This document shows positions 35,789 through 60,184 of a stretch of DNA of 64,000 nucleotides, in pieces. This DNA comes from Spartobacteria bacterium (GTDB taxonomy: Bacteria > Verrucomicrobiota > Verrucomicrobiia > Chthoniobacterales > Chthoniobacteraceae). The notes under the pieces were generated by a model. It was not told the DNA's origin, did no database searches, and saw only the letters and a list, made by a program, of their open reading frames with translations. Where the stretch lies: positions 124,001-188,000 of the forward strand of contig JAJPJG010000017.1 in the NCBI GenBank assembly GCA_021324395.1. The letters run 5' to 3'. Each line of letters starts with the position of its first letter. Positions within the stretch are counted from its first letter, which is position 1. A program made the position numbers and the translations under genes.

Positions 35789-37273
35789 TCATCTCGATTG
35801 AAGCTCCTGGTATTGGAACTGTTTGAACTTCACCTCTCCGCCGCCTGCGGCCATCACGCCGGGCCGCAAAGCAAAGAAGCCTTTGAACTTGTTGTGGTGC
35901 ATCTGCGAGACATCGATGTCGGCCTGAATGGTCGTCCACGTCTTTCCATCGCTGCTGGCTTGCACGGCGCAGAGGTTGTGACGGTTTGTGATTTTCAGGA
36001 AGAAATGATCGCCGAAAGTATTCGGATGCTGGCTCTCGTGCGAAGGGTCTTCATAAATGGTGAATTGCTTTCCGTCAGAGCTGATGCCAGCGAAAGCCTT
36101 ATCGTTATAAAATAGTATGAGTCCGCCGATGCTGCCTTCGCCGAGAGTCACTTCCGCCTGAATTTCATAGCTATGATCGGTGGCTGTGACTAATAAGAGC
36201 CGGCCATCCGCCGGGCTAGTTCCCTTGGCTGTTAAGTGAAGGCTGTTGTCTTTCAGCGTAAGGCTCTTTGGATCGTAGTCCCGCCAGGTCGTCCATTGAA
36301 GGCCTAGGTCTTTGCCGGAGAAATCATCGGAGAGCTTCATGCCGTGAGCTATCTGCGCGCCCGCGGTCGCGATCGGCGTCGCTGTTTTCGCGGCGCGGAA
36401 CCAGCCGTCGGGCAGCCACTCAATAGGTTCGATGAGAGTCTGGCGGCCTAGCGGATAGTAGCCATTCTCATAAGCATGATAGATGATCCACCAGTTGCCA
36501 TTTACATCATCAACGAGAGTGCCGTGACCTTTTGACCACCATTGCTCGTCTGCGCTGTAAGTGTGGACTATCGGGTTATACGGGGAGTTTTCCCATGGAC
36601 CATTGATGCTTTTCGAGCGCGCCGCCACCACCATGTGGCTGGTCGGAGGACCTGCGGTTCCGCCTTCCGCCGAGACCATGTAGAAGTAGTCGCCTTTGCG
36701 GAATAGCTTCGGCGATTCGAGCCACATTCCCTCGGTTTCCCAATCCTTCGGGTATTCCCAACCTTTGTAAACGTCCTCGATTTTGCCGCGCACGCCCAGC
36801 CCGTCGTCCGACAGCAGCACGCGACCGCCGGCCGAGAGAAAAAGGTAACGCTTGCCGTCCTCTCCGACTGCGTGGCCGGGATCAATGCGCCCGACTTCAA
36901 GCCGCACGGGTTTGCTCCACGGGCCGCGGATGTTCGTTGCCCAAATCACCCAGTTTTTTTCCGCCGCCGGAAAGTAGATGTAGTATTTTCCCTCATGCTT
37001 GACGAGGTCGGGCGCCATCGCGGAGCCGACGACATCGGTCATCGCACGCGCAACTGGCTCCCAATCAATGAGGTTTCTCGAATGCCAGATTAGGAAACCC
37101 GGAGTGTAGAGAAACGGCGAATGGGTCATGTAATAATCGCTGCCGTCCCGAAGAATAGAGGGGTCGGGATAGTCGCCGCGAAGGATTACGCGAGGCCAGG
37201 CCTCGTTTTGAGCGAGCGCCGAACCGGTGAGAGAGAGGATAGTAACGGCAATTATATTTTGGACATCAATCAT
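35789..37273 (-). CDS. Exported GH43 glycoside hydrolase (xylosidase/arabinofuranosidase type)
   Basis: A 494-residue secreted enzyme. A signal peptide (residues 1-21) is followed by a five-bladed GH43 domain with the base Asp in GDYPDPSIL, the pKa-tuning Asp in IDPGHAVGEDG and the acid Glu in GMWLESPKLF. The C-terminal about 180 residues form a DUF1349/concanavalin-like beta domain common in GH43 enzymes. Substrate is probably an arabinose- or xylose-containing side chain. It is the distal gene of a minus-strand locus with GH35 and a second GH43-like gene. Codon use is less GC-biased than in the flanking respiratory genes. Confidence 0.88.
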   Translation of the reverse strand: MIDVQNIIAVTILSLTGSALAQNEAWPRVILRGDYPDPSILRDGSDYYMTHSPFLYTPGFLIWHSRNLIDWEPVARAMTDVVGSAMAPDLVKHEGKYYIYFPAAEKNWVIWATNIRGPWSKPVRLEVGRIDPGHAVGEDGKRYLFLSAGGRVLLSDDGLGVRGKIEDVYKGWEYPKDWETEGMWLESPKLFRKGDYFYMVSAEGGTAGPPTSHMVVAARSKSINGPWENSPYNPIVHTYSADEQWWSKGHGTLVDDVNGNWWIIYHAYENGYYPLGRQTLIEPIEWLPDGWFRAAKTATPIATAGAQIAHGMKLSDDFSGKDLGLQWTTWRDYDPKSLTLKDNSLHLTAKGTSPADGRLLLVTATDHSYEIQAEVTLGEGSIGGLILFYNDKAFAGISSDGKQFTIYEDPSHESQHPNTFGDHFFLKITNRHNLCAVQASSDGKTWTTIQADIDVSQMHHNKFKGFFALRPGVMAAGGGEVKFKQFQYQELQSR

Positions 37274-37357
37274 AGTGAAATACTCAATAAACTCGGAACT
37301 TCCTATGGCCCGGGGTAGGCGTGTCGAGCGGTTGCGGTGAGATAGGATCGCGCGGTG

Positions 37358-37510
37358 CTAAAACGATTTTAGCTTCCAGTCGTCAGCGAGCTTGCGGGCC
37401 TCGGCGGGGGTGAGAAAGCGGGTGGTAAACGTGCCGTTGTCATTGTCAGCGCGACAAGGATAGCATAGAGGAACTATTTCGTAGTCGGCTTTGCTCCGTT
37501 TCGACGTTGA
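37358..37510 (-). pseudogene. 3' remnant of a GH43-like gene
   Basis: Directly after the GH35 stop, and in the same frame, about 50 codons stay open to a TAG at 37358-37360. The last residues read FLTPAEARKLADDWKLKSF. This closely parallels the C-terminus of the GH43-like protein at 39818-40891 (PLTPAEARKVADHWKLVSF). There is no start codon or upstream domain. I read it as the tail left by deletion of a paralogue. Confidence 0.75.
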
Positions 37511-39784
37511 TTAGCGAAATTCCGCAAAGGCTCTGTCCGGCTCCATCCGCGCGGCATGCACACTAACGCCTTTGTCCAGCGGACGCAGATTCAAAACAAT
37601 GGTGTTTGTCTTGCCAGCGCCGAAATGGAGCCACGTTTCGGGAATATAAAAATCGTGCTGTGGCCCGGCCTGCCAGTAACGGCCTAGGCAGTGACCGTTG
37701 ACGTAGATAAAGCCATCGCCATTCGCTTCGAGGTGTAAATGCCAGGGGACCCACACGCCCGGTTTCTGCGCAGGCAATTCGCACTCCATCCGATACCACG
37801 TTAGCAGAGCTTCGGGAGTTGCGCCGGGATCTTGGCTAATTGAAACGGGTTTCCAATCAACTCCAGGCTTCGTTTCCGCACGCGATAGGGCTTCGCCGAA
37901 TTCGCGTTCTTTGCCAAGCGATCCACCCTCGGCAAATTGGAGCGGTGCGTTTTCGCTCGCACCCTCGACGGAAAGAATGCCGTAAGTGCCACCCGTTTCC
38001 ATCTCTTTCGGACCGTTCCGATGCCCGAGCTTATCATACAGGACGATTAGTTCTTTTGCATCCGAAGGCAGCGTGAAAGCAAAACGCTTTTTGTCTTTGC
38101 TGACAACTGCGGGCAGAGATTTTCCACCGGAACTCCCAATGACAGCGTCACCAGGAAGCACTTCAATGGTGATTGTCGCGTCGGGATTGGCGGCGATTTT
38201 GTAATACACAAAATGACTGCTAAACACGCCATGCGCTTCAATCGGTTCATTGTGCGGAAGCGGTGTCCACGTTGATGGCAAAGAATCGCTCAATCGCTGC
38301 GCCTCATTGATCGCAACCGGCGCGGGCAGTTCGGTGGGACGTTTGATTTCGGGCGCGGGCTTCGGCAGCCATTCGCCTTTACTGGCGTCGCTTTCGCCGG
38401 GTGGCAGGTAAAGCACGAGTGAACCGAACGGCTCGAGTTTGTAATCAAACGAAAATTCCGTGCCGTCCTTTTCTTTCACGTGCGCGGCACCCGAGCGCGA
38501 GTCGGCGTGATTATCCGTGCGCACAAAAAAGTAGCGACTGCCGTCAACAGCGCGGCGTTCGGCAATAGTTACATCGGTATCGGTTGTTTTCGCTTCGCTT
38601 TCCACCTGCCGGGAACGCACGAGTTTCGCGCCGTGATCGCGGATCATCTGGCCGAGTGACCAGACGCGTTGGTAACGCTCGCCGACGCCGCCGTGTTCGC
38701 GAATCGGCGCGGCATAATCGTAGGTCGTAGTGATGTTGCGGCCACCCCAGTCGTCGAAATTCGTGCCGCCAAAGAGCATGTAATAGTTAGTGATCGTCTC
38801 GCCCATCTGCCATGCGAACAAGGTGATGTTTTGTATTTGAGCCCCGGTAAGACCGTCCTGCTTTTCGCTCAGTTTACCGCCAACTACCGAAAGCCATCCG
38901 CCCTGCAATTCGGTCGTAGCGAGAGGCGCGTCCGGCTGTTCGCGGCGCAACTTAGGGATTTGCGTTCCTAGTTCTTTCACGACATTCCAGCGTGGATAGA
39001 AATTGCAACAATCGAAGATCTGTCGCAGCACGGGCTCGCTGGAGCCCCGCACTTGTTTTGTCCAGCAGGTGAAGAGCGGAACATCAATGCCGTCGGCACA
39101 CGCGAATTGGGCGAGTGCTTTGACTTGGCCTGCTTTTATTTCATCGGAAAACTTTGCTGAATCATACTCGTTTTCCACCTGCACTAAAATGACGCCCGGA
39201 TTGCCCGGTCCCTTGTGCGTGACCTGGTGTTTTGCAATGGTCGGGCAGACCGCATCGAACCAATGTTTCGTCCAGGTGAGAAATGTCGGATCGTCGGAGC
39301 GCATCCAGCCATCCTTGTGCAGCGGCGCAGCGGGTGTTTTGAGGGCACTTAGCCACAATGGAAAACCGCCGTTGTCCCACTCCGCGCAAATGTAAGGACC
39401 GGGACGGACGATGGTGTAAAAGCCAAAATCCTCGGCCATTGCGAGCCAGTCATCCAAGTCCTGCAAACCGGTGATTTTGGAAAAGTCATCGGGCGCTTTC
39501 GGCATCTCGCGCTCGTGCCAATTCCAAGGCGTGTAAGTCTCGACCGCATTGAATCCAGCATCCTTGATCTTTTGAAAACGGTCGCGCCAGAGTTCTTTCG
39601 GGCAACGAAAATAATGAAATGCGCCGCTATAGATGAAGGTGTCCCTTCCATCAATCGTCAGGCATTGCGCATCATAGCGAATGCGTTCCGGATGTGGAAA
39701 AGGACGCGGCTCGTCGGCATGGGTTAAGACCGTGAGAGAAAGGCAAAGCATCGCGGCGAGAGAAGATCTTGGGATGATTGTCAT
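37511..39784 (-). CDS. Exported GH35 beta-galactosidase
   Basis: A 757-residue secreted enzyme with a signal peptide (1-23) and a TIM-barrel GH35 domain. The family signature is seen as GVILVQVENEYD, with acid/base Glu206, and the nucleophile is Glu292 (ATTELQGGW). C-terminal beta domains (about 480-750) include the jelly-roll YVNGHCLGRYW. GH35 releases terminal beta-galactose, for example from galactan or arabinogalactan. It lies between two GH43-type genes on the same strand and is probably co-regulated with them by the divergent LacI protein. Confidence 0.93.
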   Translation of the reverse strand: MTIIPRSSLAAMLCLSLTVLTHADEPRPFPHPERIRYDAQCLTIDGRDTFIYSGAFHYFRCPKELWRDRFQKIKDAGFNAVETYTPWNWHEREMPKAPDDFSKITGLQDLDDWLAMAEDFGFYTIVRPGPYICAEWDNGGFPLWLSALKTPAAPLHKDGWMRSDDPTFLTWTKHWFDAVCPTIAKHQVTHKGPGNPGVILVQVENEYDSAKFSDEIKAGQVKALAQFACADGIDVPLFTCWTKQVRGSSEPVLRQIFDCCNFYPRWNVVKELGTQIPKLRREQPDAPLATTELQGGWLSVVGGKLSEKQDGLTGAQIQNITLFAWQMGETITNYYMLFGGTNFDDWGGRNITTTYDYAAPIREHGGVGERYQRVWSLGQMIRDHGAKLVRSRQVESEAKTTDTDVTIAERRAVDGSRYFFVRTDNHADSRSGAAHVKEKDGTEFSFDYKLEPFGSLVLYLPPGESDASKGEWLPKPAPEIKRPTELPAPVAINEAQRLSDSLPSTWTPLPHNEPIEAHGVFSSHFVYYKIAANPDATITIEVLPGDAVIGSSGGKSLPAVVSKDKKRFAFTLPSDAKELIVLYDKLGHRNGPKEMETGGTYGILSVEGASENAPLQFAEGGSLGKEREFGEALSRAETKPGVDWKPVSISQDPGATPEALLTWYRMECELPAQKPGVWVPWHLHLEANGDGFIYVNGHCLGRYWQAGPQHDFYIPETWLHFGAGKTNTIVLNLRPLDKGVSVHAARMEPDRAFAEFR

Positions 39785-39817
39785 GGCGTTTGAAAAGGAA
39801 ATGGGCGCAGAGGCGGA

Positions 39818-40891
39818 TCAGAAGGAGACCAGCTTCCAGTGGTCGGCGACTTTGCGGGCCTCGGCGGGGGTGAGCGGGATGACCGCGCCATGCTTCGGCC
39901 CGGTGCTGAAGTTAACCGTCTTCATGGCGCCTTCGTTAAAGCGGCCGATGTTGGTGAAAGTCTTGAAGTCGGTCGTTTCGCTGAAGCCGAAGTTATGCGG
40001 TTGGATGCCGTAGATGTCATACATGAGCACCCACTTGTCCTGTCCGATGCGCTTCCAGACGTTGGGCGCCTCGCAAGCCTTCGGCTCGGGATCGCACCAA
40101 GCGGGATCGTAAACGTAGCCTGACGTGAGCGAATCGGAGACGGCTTGTTTGATGCCGGGCGTGCCATCGTGGGGGACATAAAAGAGGTGAAACTTGTCGC
40201 CGGCCTGGATGATGTCGCCGTCGATGTAGGAGATGTCCTTGGGATACTCGAACAGCAGCTCGGGCTTGGTTTCAAGCCTGGTGAACGCGTCGTCCACATA
40301 GGAGTAGTAGAGCCGGTTGCGGCCCCTGCCGAAGCGCATGGTGAAATACACCATCAGCTTCTTTTTCTGCGCGTCGTAGATCGTCTCGGGCGCCCAGGCG
40401 CAGCCGATGTCCTCGAGGCCGGGGAAGGCTTTGTCCACGCGGACATTGGAACGCGTCCAGTTGATCAGATCCGTCGATCTCATGAAGATGAGCCCTCGGT
40501 TGTTGCCCCAGTCGTAGGTCTTGCGATCACGCTCCCATTCTGTGGCGCGCAGGCCTTCCTTTTGTGCGAAGATGTGCAGATCGGTCATCGAAAGGTAGAA
40601 GGCGCCGTCGGGCCCGCGCATGATGTGGGGGTCGCGGATGCCTTTCTGCTCGGCGATCGCCTTGCCGTCGATGATGGGTTTGTCGTCGTTCAGCGCGGTA
40701 AATTTGTAGCCGTCGGAGCTGAGCGCCATGTGCAGGCTGTGGGTCTCGTCATGAAAATAGACGAGCAGGTAGGCGCCTAGTTCGGATTCCTTCGGCACGC
40801 CGGCGGCGGAAGCGGTCAACGGGGAGGTGAGGAACATGAGAAGGAGGCCGATAAGACTGAGAATCGCGTTGGGTAAAATGTTGATTTTCAT
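39818..40891 (-). CDS. Exported GH43-like glycosidase
   Basis: A 357-residue secreted protein with a signal peptide (about 1-29) and a five-bladed beta-propeller of the GH43/GH117 type. IRDPHIMRGPDGAFYLSMTD gives the likely catalytic Asp, and CAWAPETIYD holds the likely acid Glu. The exact subfamily and substrate are uncertain. It is the first gene of the minus-strand locus, 164 bases from a divergent LacI-type regulator. Its last about 18 residues recur in the remnant at 37358. Confidence 0.82.
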   Translation of the reverse strand: MKINILPNAILSLIGLLLMFLTSPLTASAAGVPKESELGAYLLVYFHDETHSLHMALSSDGYKFTALNDDKPIIDGKAIAEQKGIRDPHIMRGPDGAFYLSMTDLHIFAQKEGLRATEWERDRKTYDWGNNRGLIFMRSTDLINWTRSNVRVDKAFPGLEDIGCAWAPETIYDAQKKKLMVYFTMRFGRGRNRLYYSYVDDAFTRLETKPELLFEYPKDISYIDGDIIQAGDKFHLFYVPHDGTPGIKQAVSDSLTSGYVYDPAWCDPEPKACEAPNVWKRIGQDKWVLMYDIYGIQPHNFGFSETTDFKTFTNIGRFNEGAMKTVNFSTGPKHGAVIPLTPAEARKVADHWKLVSF

Positions 40892-40993
40892 TTGTAGGAG
40901 GGAATTCGGAAGATCGAAGCCTGACGAAACGGTAACCAGTGAGCTTCCGGCGCGTGGCTGGCGTGAATCTTTGGTGAGGAATCATTCGGCGGC

Positions 40994-41003
40994 AAATGCA
41001 TTT
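40994..41003. promoter_or_regulatory. Candidate operator for the LacI-type regulator
   Basis: AAATGCATTT is a perfect 10-bp palindrome, extended to GG-c-AAATGCATTT-CC with one extra base. It lies in the 164-base gap between the divergent GH43-like and LacI-type genes. LacI-family operators are palindromes of this kind with a central CG or GC. Position and symmetry are the only support. Confidence 0.35.
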
Positions 41004-41055
41004 CCGCTTTCACATTAAACTTGATTGGCCGACTAGGTAGGTCAGCTTGGGTTTT

Positions 41056-42099
41056 ATGCCCGCGTGCCGCCGCATCACGCTCAAGGATATCGCCGCCAAG
41101 CTGGGAGTTACGCATACGACGGTGTCGCTGGCCTTGAAGAACCACCACCGCATTTCAAAGGCACGCCGCGAACAAATCCAGCGCCTGGCGAAACAGATGG
41201 GCTATGTGCCAGATCCATTTTTGTCCGGATTGTCAGCCTATCGTCGGCGGAACGCATTGGTGAATTTTCAAGGCACCATCGCGTGGATCCGGCATTGGCA
41301 GGTGATCAACATTCGGGCGAAGATGGCATATCATCGCAACCTCTGGCGGGGCGCCTGTCAGGCTGCGAAACGCTTCGGTTATCAAATCGAGGAATTCGTT
41401 TGGCAGCAGGATCTTTCGGCGAAGCGCTTTGAACAGATTCTGCTCGCCCGAGGCATTCAGGGCATTCTCATTCAGCCGCATAATGTGGTGCCGGACTGGG
41501 CGGATTTCGATTGGACCAAATTTTCCGTCATCCGCTTCGGCATGTCCGTGCCGGTGCCCGACACGAACCTAGTGACGGCGGATGCGTTTCGGAGCACGGC
41601 GATGGCGGTGCGCAAAATTTACGAATACGGCTACCGTCGGATTGGGATGGTGGTGATGGAACACGATCAGCGCATCGGCGGCAATTTCCAAGGGGGCTTT
41701 CTGCTGGCGCAAGCCGACTTGAAGCTGAGGCCGGCCATTCCGCCTCTGGTTAGCAACAGCGGCCTTTATCGCGACAATCCGAAGGAGGCCAACCGCCGGT
41801 TGCGGCAGTGGTTGGAAAAGTATCGGCCCAATGCCATCCTTACTACCGAGCCGCATCTGCCGCGCCAGTTGCGCGAGTTGCATTATCGCATTCCCGAAGA
41901 TGTCGCCGTGGCGGCCACCAACGTCCACGACGTGAAGGTGGATGCCGGCATTGACGAGCCCGCGGAAGCGGTCGGGCGCATCGCCGTGGAAATGCTCGTG
42001 AAGCAGATTAACATCAGCGAGCGCGGCGAACCGGAAGACCCGTGCCGCATCCTTGTCGAAGGCCGCTGGCAGAACGGAAAATCCCTGCCGCGCCTTTGA
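41056..42099 (+). CDS. LacI-family transcriptional regulator
   Basis: A 347-residue regulator. The N-terminal helix-turn-helix (ITLKDIAAKLGVTHTTVSLAL, about residues 7-27) with hinge is followed by a periplasmic-binding-protein-like sugar sensor domain (about 65-340). It probably binds operators in the shared upstream gap and controls the GH43/GH35 locus in response to a sugar. ATG 41056 is chosen; a TTG nine bases upstream is an alternative. No transporter gene is linked. Confidence 0.9.
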   Translation: MPACRRITLKDIAAKLGVTHTTVSLALKNHHRISKARREQIQRLAKQMGYVPDPFLSGLSAYRRRNALVNFQGTIAWIRHWQVINIRAKMAYHRNLWRGACQAAKRFGYQIEEFVWQQDLSAKRFEQILLARGIQGILIQPHNVVPDWADFDWTKFSVIRFGMSVPVPDTNLVTADAFRSTAMAVRKIYEYGYRRIGMVVMEHDQRIGGNFQGGFLLAQADLKLRPAIPPLVSNSGLYRDNPKEANRRLRQWLEKYRPNAILTTEPHLPRQLRELHYRIPEDVAVAATNVHDVKVDAGIDEPAEAVGRIAVEMLVKQINISERGEPEDPCRILVEGRWQNGKSLPRL

Positions 42100-42419: not shown

Positions 42420-42796
42420 TTTTGTTAGGTCGCAAAGAGGTATTGCGATATCGCAAAGGGTCTTTGTTATGTCTCAAAAAGGCTTTGCGATGTCTCAAAG
42501 GGATTTTGTTATGTCGCAAAGAGTCTTTGTTATGTCTCAGAAAGGCTTTGCGATATCGCAAAGGGTCTTTGCGATGTCTCAGAAAGGCTTTGCGATATCG
42601 CAAAGGGTCTTTGCGATGTCTCAGAAGGGTTTTGGATGTTGCAGAGAGCCTTTGCGATGTCTCAAAGAGGCTTTGTTAGGTCGCAAAATGCCTTTGCGAT
42701 ATCGCAAAGAGGTTTTGTTATGTCGCAAAAAGTCTTTGCGACATCGCAGAGAGGCTTTGTTATGTCTCAAAGAGTCTTTGCGAGGTATCAAAATGG
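42420..42796. repeat. 18-copy tandem array of a 21-bp palindromic unit
   Basis: Eighteen head-to-tail units run without gaps; 17 are 21 bp and one is 20 bp (42630-42649). The core is the perfect 18-bp palindrome CTTTGCGATATCGCAAAG plus three linker bases. Units 7 and 9 (42546, 42588) are identical and alternate with a GATGTCTCAGAAAGG form, giving a 42-bp higher-order repeat. Because 21 is divisible by three, every frame stays open on both strands and reads as MSQKGFA-like or RYRKGSL-like heptapeptides. I do not regard these as genes. The 21-bp period equals two DNA helical turns. Confidence 0.93.
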
Positions 42797-42999
42797 CGGA
42801 GACAGGCGGTTTTTACGCGGCGAGATGTATACTTTTTGGTAATTAGTTGATGTCGTTACGTTTATTTATATTTATTATAAATATACTTTTAACCTCGTTG
42901 TAAAGCTGGCAAGGCTGCTGCTTTACGCTTTGGCGCGCTCGTCAATGACGGCGGGCGCTGCAAACAAAAACCAAATGCAATTAGAAAAACAAAAACAAA
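42797..42999. promoter_or_regulatory. AT-rich leader between the palindrome array and the FnIII gene
   Basis: This stretch includes a markedly AT-rich run at about 42855-42892 (TTTATTTATATTTATTATAA and following), unlike the rest of the window. Several -10-like hexamers occur, among them TATACT near 42828 and TATAAA near 42876, but no well-spaced -35/-10 pair stands out. The 30 bases before the FnIII ATG are almost all A and C, with no Shine-Dalgarno sequence. Confidence 0.5.
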
Positions 43000-43620
43000 A
43001 TGATAGTAAAACCATCAACGGACTTCATCAACCGGAGTTCGGATTCAGAGCTGGTGGCAACCACGGGTGCCATCATTATGGGTATGACCAATAACCCTGA
43101 TTACCCCACCCCGAGCCCTACGCTGGCGGACGTGAGTGCAAAAAGCACTGCATTCTCCGATGCCATGGCGGCGGCGGCGGGTGGCGGGGTGCAGTTAACG
43201 GCGGAGAAGAATGCCCGCCGTGCGGAACTCGCAGCATCGCTTCGGCTGCTGGCGAGCTACGCCCAGACCGCCTGTAACGGCGATCTCGCGGTGCTGCTGA
43301 GCAGCGGATTCCCAATCCAGAAACCGCAGCGGCAGCCTATCGGCGTCCTGCCCGCTCCTTCAGACCTGCGCGTCCGCCTCGGCGGCGTGAGCGGTGCGCT
43401 GGATGCGAGTGCGTCGCCGGTGTATGGTGCCGGTGTCTATAACTGGAAGCTGGTGGCGACCAGTGCCCCGAATGTCGTGCTCCAAACAGCACAGACGACC
43501 GGTGCGCGCACGTCGTTCACCGGGCTGACTCCGGGTGTGGAATACAGCGTCACGCTCAACGCGGTCGGCTCCGCCGGCCCGAGTGACTGGGCCAATCCCG
43601 TCTCGCAGATCGTGATCTAG
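43000..43620 (+). CDS. Fibronectin type III domain protein
   Basis: A 206-residue protein without a signal peptide. Residues 1-110 form a predicted helical region (AIIMGMTNNPDYPTPSPTL, then KNARRAELAASLRLLASYA). Residues about 118-206 form a fibronectin type III domain (SFTGLTPGVEYSVTLNAVG). From memory, this architecture recurs in Bacteroidota and Verrucomicrobiota as small proteins of unknown function. It follows the 21-bp palindrome array and an AT-rich leader, and is closed by a strong terminator, so it is probably a single-gene transcript. Confidence 0.8.
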   Translation: MIVKPSTDFINRSSDSELVATTGAIIMGMTNNPDYPTPSPTLADVSAKSTAFSDAMAAAAGGGVQLTAEKNARRAELAASLRLLASYAQTACNGDLAVLLSSGFPIQKPQRQPIGVLPAPSDLRVRLGGVSGALDASASPVYGAGVYNWKLVATSAPNVVLQTAQTTGARTSFTGLTPGVEYSVTLNAVGSAGPSDWANPVSQIVI

Positions 43621-43647
43621 GAACCAGACACGAAGCCAACCAAAAGG

Positions 43648-43687
43648 GCGCGCCGCTGAGTTTCTCATCGGCGCGCTTTTTGTTTTT
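43648..43687 (+). terminator. Intrinsic terminator after the FnIII gene
   Basis: GCGCGCCG (43648-43655) pairs with CGGCGCGC (43669-43676). An inner TGAG/CTCA pairing extends the stem around a TTT loop, and TTTTTGTTTTT follows. Confidence 0.92.
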
Positions 43688-57100: not shown

Positions 57101-60100
57101 TCGCCTGCTCCGCGAAGCGTCGAAGTCTCTTTCACTGTGCGCGTGCCTTACGATGGCGGGCATGTGGATCAAATCGTGAACAACGATTACGATTTTGGCG
57201 TTCTCGATCCGACGGCGTCGGCCAAACTGAAAAAATTCGTCTTCAGTCAATCCGCGCTTTACGGCGCAGATCCGAAGTCGCTGGTTGCTCCGGTTAATCG
57301 CAACGTCGAGCCTGCCACGCAGCCGCATCTCAAGATCAACAAAACCGCGCGCGGGCCGTTCCAGTTGGCGAACGCAAACTTCCACGGCGCCGGCACCGCA
57401 CTTTATCCCGGCATCGGCGATGTGGTGATCGCGGTCGCGGGACATGGCGTCGATTACGAGCTCGATTATTCCAATCTCGATTACGTCACGACGACATCGA
57501 CCACTGCCGCAGCCGACGCGCACGGCGTGGTGTTGCACGACGTGATCCCGCTCGGCATGCAGCTCGCGGGTTTTTTCAAGCAACACATCGGACCTGCGCA
57601 AAAGAGCGGACAGCTCGTCGCCGGCACGCGCTACACCATCGCGGAGTATGTCGACGGCGATAACTTCACGAACGTCGGTGCGCCATCGAACGAAACCGGC
57701 GCGAGCTTCGTCGCGACGGGAACAACGCCGACGACGTGGAGCAATGGCTCCTCACTCTACGCCGAGGCCGAGATGCATGCGGAGCAGTTCACGTTTTACG
57801 ATAAAAGCGGCGTCATTATCCCCGGCATCAATCCCGACGGCTCGGCAAACATGGCGAACGTCGCGAGCATGGATATTCGCCTCGGCGACATCGCCAATCT
57901 CACCAACGTTCCGCGAAACAGCGCCGGCTACATCACCTACACTTGCGTCCCGACCATTGGCCCGAGCGATCAAATCAAATACTCGCCCAAAGGCGAACCG
58001 GAAGGTTTCTTCGGCGGCCCCGGTTTGATCCACTCCTTCGGCGGCTTCAACAACCTCGACGACATTAGCGGACCGCTCCAGGGCTTTTACATCAGCACCA
58101 GCGACGCGCCCGACAGCCCCGCGCAAGGCACGCCCGACGACCTCGTCGTAAAGGTCAAGAACGACATCTCGTTTACCTTCTTCAACGGCGGACCGCAAAA
58201 AGGCCTGTTGATTCGCGGGCCGCTCGCCGGTCACGACCAGCGCGCACAGCCCGGCGATGTGCAGGTTTACGATTTTACGTTTACGCAAAATGGCGACCTC
58301 GCCGCCAACGGCAGCGTTCTGCTGTTCGACCTGCCGCCCGGCGTCACGCTGCTGAACGAGCAGGTCAGCGGCAATACCGCATCCGGCAACAAACCCGCGC
58401 CGAACGGCGATTTCCACGCGGTGATCATCGACGAGAGCGGCACGAGTGCCGCAAATCTTGCGCAAAGCGGCACCACCGCGCAGATCACGCTCGGCAAGGT
58501 CGATGGACACACCACACGGACCGCGCGTATTTTCCTGCTCGTCAACAATCCGGTCGATCCGGCGTTGATGGCCGGCGGGCGCTTTGAGACTGGATTCTTC
58601 CCGCTGAATTCGCACATCACTTTCCAGTTCGGCTCCACGCACGCGCACAGCGGCTTGTTCACCCGCGCGTCGTCGCCAGTGCTCAGCGGCACGTCGGGCG
58701 CGACCTCGATCGACCAGACTCCCGTCGCGCCACTCGGCGCTCCGCAGCTTTCGATCCATCGCGATGTCTCGAAGGCCGTCGTTCCGAAAGGTTCGCAGTT
58801 CACCTACACGCTTTCGTTTGCAAACAGCGGCGATTCCGATGCGACGAACGTCAAAGTCGGCATGCAAATCCCGTGGGGTGCGCAATTCGTCAGCACAGGC
58901 AACGGCACCCTCAGCGTCCTGCAATCGGGAAGCAGCGTTGTCATCCCAAACAGCAAATCGCCCACGATGACACCGCGCAACGCTGACCAGGTCAATGGCA
59001 CCGGCCCCGGCCCGGATATCATCACCTGGCATTTCGACACCCTGCCCGCACATTCCACCGGCAGGATCGACCTCCTCGTCCAGTGCTTCAACGGCTCGAA
59101 GAAGGCCGCGGCCTTTGCCGACAACCTGATCCAGGACAACTCCGTTTACATCCACGCAGACAACGCGGCCACGGCGTTCCTTTCGCCAAACCAGATCGGC
59201 GTCTGGGTCAAAGGCTCTTCTTTCGACAAGAAGAAGCCGGAGATGGTTCACAAATTCCTCGATAACTTCGGCATTCATGCAGCCGATTCCGACAAGGTCG
59301 CAGCCGACGCCGCCAACGACCTGATCAACACCCTTTCGGAAGACTCGCACATCAAAGCCGACGCCGCGCTCGATTATCTCAGCGTGATGAATCCCGCCTC
59401 CGCAGTCCACGTCTATCCGCTCGGTCAGAACCAGGTCATGATCGTCGCTTCCGGCGCGGGCAACATCGTCGCTTCCGGCGCGGGCAATCTCACAGTCCCC
59501 CTGCCCGGCAACCAGTCGATGATCGTCGCATCCGGGGCGGGCAACATCATCAGCCATGATGGCGGCACCATCGTTGCCTCCGGTGCTGGCAACATCGTCG
59601 CTTCCGGCGCCGGCAACATCGTCGCTTCGGGTGCGGGCAATATCGTCGCTTCGGGCGCGGGCAACGCCATCTCGCTCACCAACGTCGCCGGCATCGGCGG
59701 CACGCACGATTGCGCCTATCTGCTCGATCACTCGCTCGACATCGTCGCAGCCGGCGGCGGAAACATCGTCGCAGCCGGCGCAGGCAACCTCATCAGCAGT
59801 GACGGTCTTGGTAACTCCAACCTCATCAGCAACCAGGCCGGCGGAGGCATCATCGCGCCGATCACACCGGGCGAAATCGCCTCCGGCCTCGTCAACACCA
59901 ACGGCAGCAACCTCGTCATCAAAGGCGCGGGCGTCATCAGCGGCATCGGCGACATCAGCAGCATGGTCGCGCACAGCGCCGCCAATAACATCACCTTGGA
60001 AGGCCGCGACATCGCCGTAGCCGGCTCCGGAGCAGACCTCGCCAACATCAAAGGCGGTGCCATCGTCGCATCAGGCGCGGGCAACATCGTCGCATCAGGT

Positions 60101-60184
60101 GCCGGGAACATCGTCGCATCCGGCGCAGGGAACATTGTCGCCTCGGGTGCGGGCAATATCGTCGCATCCGGCGCTGGCAACTAA
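54122..60184 (+). CDS. Giant exported FG-GAP/Calx-beta/DUF11 protein with C-terminal IVASGAGN repeats
   Basis: 2020 residues from the first start codon in this frame. FG-GAP/VCBS units carry calcium-type loops (DFDNDGTPD at 5, DLDGDGQSE near 63, DVDGDGLDD near 175, DVDGDGRPD near 227, DLNGDGQPE near 290). A Calx-beta-like domain (about 400-530) and several DUF11-type modules (about 660, 815, 1070 and 1540) follow. The tail (about 1774-2020) has twelve exact IVASGAGN octapeptides, two IVAAG[GA]GN variants and related spacers, and ends on a repeat. It is probably a cell-surface or secreted adhesin-like protein. The true N-terminus with signal peptide lies in another frame at 53988, so the gene is frameshifted or the base is missing. 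No C-terminal anchor is visible. Confidence 0.88.
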   Translation: MVMGDFDNDGTPDVAVLGQVFVSGTAAGAVEVHFGDGNGGFRSGVATFTVNTSNSNFPGMAAADLDGDGQSELIFAAGYSVLIYDWDGSAFAQSKSIDLTNTEAGGIDATKIAVGNLTTAPDGGTSTPGSQDIVVSDDFGSVGVVWIPNDGAGNFGTPTAHAAGGCGYYAKPVVADVDGDGLDDVVLCHTPTVGVLINKGDGTLDAESTYGNSSLSNFQPQSVAVADVDGDGRPDLVVTGYIHDSLTFHDTYHLSVNRNNGDGTFADGQDFGYTLNGGNRIDALTIAAADLNGDGQPESVVTPAMDPGGTGFTGFVITQWASTSGTLTATQTKFPTNDGIEYQSLTLGYAKNDGSFATFNNDSQTDVLIGTSADIFGSNNTTHSQFALFENTTPTIPKGNKLDFTKTQFDVAEGDELDVTVVRGSDSTGKVTEYFSTFTPSGTAVLDGYQAKGQQADYLITDPAYGLSQAQPVVFQDGEFTKNIHIKIYSGKGSEPDKTIILTLQQPMGDAYIDPNDTKTVATITVHDSIPTQLHTPGGLIVKPTATLPVPVTLAKAGVKVAGVTGADWTFSTSQLLPPDAKNPSIKVQFSPNGGTNWIDTTITLTQGKGSAWSAVKRHPLPFPCSKTLFRTVTSADGYPDVIGAPTQLFDVIFGPELGVYVNPKSDSDDGAASVHTGESIIYNFNVVNTIGDADGNNVVLTVPIPPHTTYLNSTLVNGIAAQQIKDKSGKTTAVSWTFPTIAKGAQLTTPSVTVQVDSAGMFSSKEQKKYPQGAGYIIIEQNIALSAIAQGMKAAPVIYNGTHAFGKDECDTEIVGSLKFDAVGSNKDETHPANPGDLITYNFDCENDDAQPLTGATVTSAIPNGTELVTVYSFDSYNPVTGDANAQNQPLQNPGPLTNPAIIYKRTSFNAVISPAVFGLPLDPKNLNATQKQEYTLLFNIWKAKPGTELDPGTTTDVTTLAQLDSAAFQILLEDGFITPARIVWTLGSIGPSPAPRSVEVSFTVRVPYDGGHVDQIVNNDYDFGVLDPTASAKLKKFVFSQSALYGADPKSLVAPVNRNVEPATQPHLKINKTARGPFQLANANFHGAGTALYPGIGDVVIAVAGHGVDYELDYSNLDYVTTTSTTAAADAHGVVLHDVIPLGMQLAGFFKQHIGPAQKSGQLVAGTRYTIAEYVDGDNFTNVGAPSNETGASFVATGTTPTTWSNGSSLYAEAEMHAEQFTFYDKSGVIIPGINPDGSANMANVASMDIRLGDIANLTNVPRNSAGYITYTCVPTIGPSDQIKYSPKGEPEGFFGGPGLIHSFGGFNNLDDISGPLQGFYISTSDAPDSPAQGTPDDLVVKVKNDISFTFFNGGPQKGLLIRGPLAGHDQRAQPGDVQVYDFTFTQNGDLAANGSVLLFDLPPGVTLLNEQVSGNTASGNKPAPNGDFHAVIIDESGTSAANLAQSGTTAQITLGKVDGHTTRTARIFLLVNNPVDPALMAGGRFETGFFPLNSHITFQFGSTHAHSGLFTRASSPVLSGTSGATSIDQTPVAPLGAPQLSIHRDVSKAVVPKGSQFTYTLSFANSGDSDATNVKVGMQIPWGAQFVSTGNGTLSVLQSGSSVVIPNSKSPTMTPRNADQVNGTGPGPDIITWHFDTLPAHSTGRIDLLVQCFNGSKKAAAFADNLIQDNSVYIHADNAATAFLSPNQIGVWVKGSSFDKKKPEMVHKFLDNFGIHAADSDKVAADAANDLINTLSEDSHIKADAALDYLSVMNPASAVHVYPLGQNQVMIVASGAGNIVASGAGNLTVPLPGNQSMIVASGAGNIISHDGGTIVASGAGNIVASGAGNIVASGAGNIVASGAGNAISLTNVAGIGGTHDCAYLLDHSLDIVAAGGGNIVAAGAGNLISSDGLGNSNLISNQAGGGIIAPITPGEIASGLVNTNGSNLVIKGAGVISGIGDISSMVAHSAANNITLEGRDIAVAGSGADLANIKGGAIVASGAGNIVASGAGNIVASGAGNIVASGAGNIVASGAGN
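59441..60181 (+). repeat. 24-bp coding repeats (IVASGAGN octapeptide)
   Basis: Tandem 24-base units encode IVASGAGN: two at 59441-59488, one near 59522-59545, four at 59573-59668 and five at 60062-60181. Two IVAAG[GA]GN variants lie near 59741-59788. Codons vary at third positions (GCT/GCA/GCC, TCC/TCA/TCG, GGC/GGT), so the protein sequence is conserved beyond what recent DNA duplication would give. Confidence 0.92.

Follow-up and report, generated by a model that had tools for sequence, protein, structure and literature searches.

In multi-operator promoters and in the SV40 21-bp repeats, binding sites recur every two helical turns in front of a promoter. Plasmid iterons of the RK2 or R6K type are direct repeats of ~20-22 bp, also at two-turn spacing, which are replicon-specific and sometimes lie beside an AT-rich region (review PMC4980987). 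Prokaryotic satellites and minisatellites are tandem units of 10-200 bp, often of unique sequence, in intergenic or coding DNA (Subirana & Messeguer 2019, PMC6749651); a 21-nt class and Verrucomicrobia are both absent from the main text of that survey. PARCELs are protein-coding units of 25 residues (75 bp; PMC2996958), and REP/BIME palindromes are associated with RAYT (Y1) transposases (PMC3733652). Satellites, PARCELs, REPs and iterons all fail to fit the arrays reported here. A published description of such arrays was not found in the open-licence PMC literature (one may exist elsewhere), and no element found in the literature search fitted, in line with the first-pass annotation of the locus, which had recognised no described element in it. 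Bacterial repeats are usually recognised by a common sequence, whereas in these arrays it is the spacing that is fixed, the sequence being free.

The window is the whole stretch of DNA analysed (64,000 nucleotides); its own genome (G000) is 91.5% complete, and G027, G028, G031, G032 and the other genomes named below are relatives. The arrays have a common architecture with exact spacing and with conserved cores that are private to the locus, and they are linked to two gene families. Regarding iteron origins, the window array likewise consists of direct repeats (~17-22 bp) at helical spacing, whereas the arrays are chromosomal, number several per 400 kb with different sequences, stand mostly before small-protein genes and in one case are coding; the window array has no replication initiator gene among the neighbours checked, and a conserved AT-rich unwinding region is absent. 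Compared with prokaryotic satellites, the arrays have a locked period with free sequence, cores that outlast the spacers and a gene-family link. With PARCELs the arrays share a tandem arrangement of dyad-symmetric DNA repeats, which may lie in coding sequence and vary from locus to locus, but the units here are of 21 bp (some 20 or 22 bp) and mostly non-coding, which places them outside that class. Short palindromes at many intergenic sites per genome are shared with REP/BIME elements, but REPs are one dispersed sequence family, whereas the arrays are private and tandem, and no match to Y1_Tnp was found in G000. Nor do the arrays qualify as repeats made by a reverse transcriptase (DRT, retron or DGR), no match to RVT_1 having been found in G000 or G028; the absence of both enzymes from G000 removes two obvious drivers. 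Like CRISPR, the arrays combine short, partly palindromic repeats with variable spacers of fixed length, but with cores of 8-12 bp and spacers of 9-13 bp they are too short for a guide. In form the arrays match a helically phased operator or enhancer array, with dyad cores at whole-turn spacing (about half of the arrays have a significant dyad); compared with multi-operator promoters and the SV40 21-bp repeats, the arrays have 8 to 20 copies and a core of their own at each locus.

The features of the window locus are as follows; C53 is the contig of G000 that carries the closest paralog of the small-protein gene.

42420..42796, no strand: 21-bp repeat array of 18 head-to-tail units, all of 21 bp but for one of 20 bp; the consensus unit is the dyad CTTTGCGATATCGCAAAG plus 3 bp, and alternation of units gives a 42-bp period
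42420..42466, + strand: the 47 bp at the gene-distal end of the array, which match 47 bp at the corresponding place 5' of the C53 paralog with 96% identity
42821..42900, no strand: AT-rich segment that separates the array from the gene; putative promoter region, without conservation across the array class
42935..42958, + strand: predicted 5'-UTR stem-loop (GCGCGCTCGTC..GACGGCGGGCGC), z -2.7
43000..43620, + strand: small-protein gene, 206 aa, encoding a helical bundle at the N-terminus and a fibronectin type III (FnIII) domain at the C-terminus
43643..43681, + strand: Rho-independent-type terminator, z -4.1; the C53 paralog is trailed by an identical stem-loop sequence

The first-pass annotation had described 18 palindromic 21-bp repeats, each on a perfect palindrome, two helical turns apart. 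The coordinates and the number of units stand, except that one unit (unit 11, 42630-42649) has 20 bp, and dyad units at two-turn spacing are supported (dyad test for this array, p=0.005). The perfection of the palindrome was overstated, since the perfect 18-bp form CTTTGCGATATCGCAAAG occurs in only three of the 18 units (at 42546, 42588 and 42692); with up to three mismatches it is found in seven, compared with 0.11 expected by chance. Tandem Repeats Finder reported a period of 21 (17 copies) and one of 42 (8.9 copies, 80% match), so that the 42-bp higher-order repeat, also annotated, is real. When G000 (3.68 Mb) was searched with the window array, the sole match was the 47-bp relic (96%) on contig C53, beyond which the units of the C53 array are unrelated; no second full copy was found in the 3.68 Mb. 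The palindrome is private to the window array and this relic, and further genomic sites do not exceed chance (3 matches at 3 mismatches; control 3), for which reason a regulon site was rejected. A coding role of the window array was also rejected, as its 7-codon frames simply follow from the 21-bp period and arrays of 20, 22, 41 and 43 bp exist.

The AT maximum of the window lies directly behind the array (about 42826-42925), as annotated: the 60-bp window from 42833 is 83% AT and the 100-bp window from 42826 is 71% AT. In a comparison across loci, a strong AT-rich tract behind the array was found only here and at C53. A sigma-70 consensus was looked for in the putative promoter region of the window array and was not found. 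A hairpin is also predicted at the matching position upstream of the C53 paralog (z -1.65), and both loci have the order array, promoter region, UTR hairpin, gene. The window array is flanked by a gene for a LacI-family regulator (41047-42099) and by the 206-aa gene; its Pfam-checked neighbours are genes for the LacI-family regulator, glycosidases, a chloride channel and further metabolic or membrane functions. Rep or par genes, of which the annotation had likewise seen none nearby, are absent from the Pfam-checked neighbours, as are cas genes, and no Rfam CRISPR match was found within the window. A cluster of GH43 and GH35 glycoside hydrolases beside the LacI-family regulator (35789-42099), just 5' of the array, is likely a sugar-use locus.

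The 206-aa protein matched Pfam fn3 with E=2e-4, weaker than the curated cut-off; its AlphaFold2 model (pLDDT 94.6) has the helical bundle N-terminally and the FnIII domain C-terminally, and Foldseek searches of the PDB and viral libraries gave FnIII matches exclusively. With folds that match FnIII alone and a median pI of 6.5 in the family, a DNA-binding role of the protein found no support and is at best a weak possibility. The C53 paralog encodes a protein of 66% identity. The gene family has multiple copies, which stand in neighbourhoods unrelated to each other; its loci occur in 14 of the 40 genomes of the taxonomic family, with up to 19 matches in G027. Searches of plasmids, phages and viral contigs found no relatives. 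A second small-protein family (A3, NRLAFLKNLK type) is unrelated to the first and likewise array-linked. In Pfam and NCBIfam there is no family for the non-FnIII part of the 206-aa protein and none for A3. Many FnIII-family proteins (L058, L059, L061-L080) have an apparent N-terminal extension with WDTPGLxWDG-like motifs, which suggests an additional module common to the family. More small-protein genes adjoin 21-bp arrays at L114:3743-4360, L128:12283-12900, L103:7314-8087, L106:4064-4510 and L125:4380-5501; those tested received no Pfam or NCBIfam assignment.

Regarding the linkage to FnIII genes, to which the first-pass annotation had also pointed, an array was found at most 900 bp upstream in 35 of the 40 family loci of G000 and relatives that have 400 bp or more of upstream sequence (periods of 20-22 or 41-44 bp counted). 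The share of random 900-bp windows with an array was 2.9% for G000, 2.6% for G027, 1.0% for further members of the taxonomic family and 0.5% for other families. Nominally, the binomial P is < 1e-40, the paralogs not being independent, though their arrays are mostly unalignable. Each of the other G000 paralogs has a 21-bp-period array upstream, with different units. Regarding the A3 family, arrays stand upstream in all five loci of G000 and both loci of G027, with others in G032, G024 and G001. The helical bundle + FnIII family and the NRLAFL family, both uncharacterised, are marked as parts of one kind of locus.

In 400-kb samples, ~9-10 arrays each were found in G000 and G027, with a period of 21 or 42 nearly throughout; the remaining lags are mostly multiples of three. 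Array density is an estimate from these 400 kb of each of the two genomes, and the G000 genome contains dozens of arrays, mainly upstream of uncharacterised small-protein genes. At the same threshold, other family members (~390 kb) and other families (385 kb) yielded three arrays only, one of them in alaS (G032). Array sites that do not precede a small gene lie beside a gene for a 2,805-aa autotransporter-like protein, downstream of a tRNA gene, between two convergent genes and in alaS. Outside the taxonomic family, arrays of 20, 21 or 22 bp were found in G052 (same order) and in G283 and G274 (same class), and a Verrucomicrobia subdivision 3 MAG has a relative locus with a degenerate array. 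Confinement to one genome with random unit loss, which the annotation had named as favouring a neutral satellite, was not observed: arrays of the same architecture, but with units of unrelated sequence, recur in other genera, in other families and at the level of the class. Several contigs (L063, L067, L068, L072, L082, L085 and L089) end within a few hundred bp 5' of the gene, which is what one would expect should short-read assembly fail at arrays; the array counts are probably too low.

A free scan for the 9-bp core of each array, with no preset period, gave distances of 21 bp (375 times), 42 bp (36), 20 bp (7) and 22 bp (5). Dyad symmetry was significant at 0.05 in 55% of 53 arrays (weighted test), whose consensus units have 5.74 of 8 complementary pairs compared with 4.87 in column-permuted controls (p=1.3e-7). 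Dyad-symmetric columns are better kept than the remaining columns (p=6e-4; controls near zero), and in a held-out comparison the identity was 0.73 in cores and 0.56 in spacers. At the autotransporter-like gene, the array contains 19 TTGGGCAAG cores; its 12-bp spacers are unrelated, yet 17 of the 18 gaps equal 21. The half-site geometry is not uniform between arrays, none of the 12 most homogeneous arrays has a significant dyad (unweighted test), and the relation of dyad strength to array age is a trend only (p=0.08 to 0.11). No 10.5-bp A/T phasing was found in the arrays, and intrinsic curvature was rejected on this ground. Unit sequences were compared for ~75 distinct arrays and are private in nearly all. 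Unit identity reaches 0.95 within some arrays, for which recent amplification, as read from the window array at first pass, holds; other arrays are old, with near-random spacers and spacing that is still exact. Fixed spacing in unrelated arrays across genera, families and the class implies that the constraint is either DNA geometry or a process that acts as a 21-bp ruler, and either would be new.

Paralogous and orthologous loci can differ in their arrays. Regarding four paralogs in G028, the 5' regions are 71-89% and the genes 68-81% identical, but the arrays just 12-54%. Orthologs in G031 and G032 (gene 98.9% identical) have like arrays save for one replaced two-unit block, the length being unchanged; L083 (G032:C140) and L085 (G031:C61) differ there by ~17 changes in ~45 bp, and no donor for the block was found outside the array itself. 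Contigs C117 and C9 of G027 each carry a copy of one array together with its 5' region and the first ~35 codons of a small gene; one copy precedes a different ORF, and scattered substitutions apart, exactly one 21-bp unit distinguishes the copies. This duplication (L128:12283-13300 and L249:600-1800) amounts to a promoter-capture event.

The genuine in-frame coding case among the arrays is that in the essential gene alaS, where selection on DNA can be compared with selection on protein in a natural test.

L106:12126-12445 (G000:C17): in-frame tandem array in one alaS loop; also in L157 (G027) and L156/L197 (G032)

Most relatives have only a short loop at this site, without insert. The G000 alaS array consists of 7-residue repeats from 21-bp units with the dyad GGTGAGCTCACC; the same loop carries an unrelated 21-bp array in G027 and an array with a 42-bp period in G032. 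Identity in the G000 array is 0.88 in the core and 0.30 in the spacers (random 0.26), and the core codons are GGT for Gly and ACC for Thr in nearly all units.

Tentatively, and at somewhat less than even chance, the arrays are read as locus-private rows of helically phased binding sites that would serve as nucleoprotein platforms near promoters. The window array would then be a cis-acting DNA element in which a dyad core every 21 bp (two turns) places the sites on one face of the helix, just 5' of the putative promoter and 5'-UTR of the small-protein gene. A dimeric or cooperatively assembling DNA-binding protein might coat the array to form a regular platform, which would control the adjoining transcription unit. 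An array may arise by plain 21-bp tandem duplication and later retain core and spacing as the spacers drift, with blocks of one or two units gained, lost or replaced over time. Such a row of binding sites accounts for the spacing, the cores, the dyads and the place 5' of the putative promoter and UTR hairpin. It accords poorly with the arrays in alaS, 3' of a tRNA gene and between convergent genes, where a regulatory role makes little sense, and with the restriction of a significant dyad, of variable half-site geometry, to about half of the arrays. As each core is private, the model would require dozens of different specificities in each genome, and no DNA-binding partner linked to the arrays was found. 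The chief competitor, which is unlikely though to be taken seriously, is a lineage-specific satellite: a replication or repair process would make fixed 21-bp duplications where the DNA tolerates them, the upstream regions of orphan genes being permissive and the arrays without function. This would suit the unrelated units of different arrays, the gain of unrelated arrays by the tolerant alaS loop, the missing dyad in the most homogeneous arrays and the whole unit gained or lost between the two G027 copies. Neutral units, however, should diverge evenly, whereas the dyad columns are the more conserved, and conserved cores amid near-random spacers at an unchanged spacing are unexpected for a neutral satellite. 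Position should also ignore gene identity, but two families are linked, the FnIII loci far above the ~3% background, and arrays are nearly absent from sampled family members with few or none of the linked genes. Since the satellite leaves the cores and the gene link unexplained and the platform lacks a linked factor, the platform is preferred only tentatively and the satellite retains a minor share of the probability.

A mobile cassette, in which array, promoter and small gene form a non-autonomous unit and the array is the site of recombination or mobilisation, is improbable. The G027 duplication ahead of a different ORF, the 47 bp common to the window array and C53 despite proteins of such moderate identity, and a multi-copy gene family in unrelated neighbourhoods all speak for movement, but conserved ends were not seen, the Y1 transposase and reverse transcriptase are missing from G000, and phages, plasmids and viral contigs gave no match. 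The variation of array sequences between copies implies that they are not the site of one recombinase. Still less probable is a transcribed structural element whose RNA would form a long interrupted hairpin governing mRNA stability or premature termination. The array does fold much more stably than shuffled sequences (z -12.6 and -14.0) and contains terminator-like stems, but any palindromic tandem array folds in this way, so that strong MFE z-scores are trivial; the 21-bp pitch suits B-DNA rather than A-form RNA, several arrays lack a dyad, and within-unit covariation is not significant (p=0.13), which counts against an RNA hairpin per unit and led to its rejection. The resemblance to a replication or partition site drawn at first pass rests on 21-22-bp direct repeats by an AT-rich segment, as in iteron origins, and does not survive the wider comparison: several arrays with different units occur per 400 kb of chromosome (~nine in G000), mainly before small-protein genes, one lies inside alaS, the AT-rich tract is not conserved, the checked neighbours include no rep or par, and the linked gene has no plasmid or phage relative. 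A replication origin, plasmid iteron or centromere is accordingly hardly credible, and a phage, plasmid or viral origin was rejected for want of matches.

A more speculative and rather improbable reading is that of a new class of chromosomal elements in Verrucomicrobiota defined by geometry only, with a private dyad core per locus, a two-turn repeat and free spacers, which may be recognised through self-similarity. In place of a sequence-specific regulator, recognition could proceed by DNA-DNA or array-wide pairing, or by a filament more sensitive to the spacing than to the sequence, and each small-protein locus would then have a unique address.

Elsewhere in the window (59441-60181), tandem repeats of 24 bp / 48 bp (ATCGTCGCTTCCGGCGCGGGCAAC) are probably coding.
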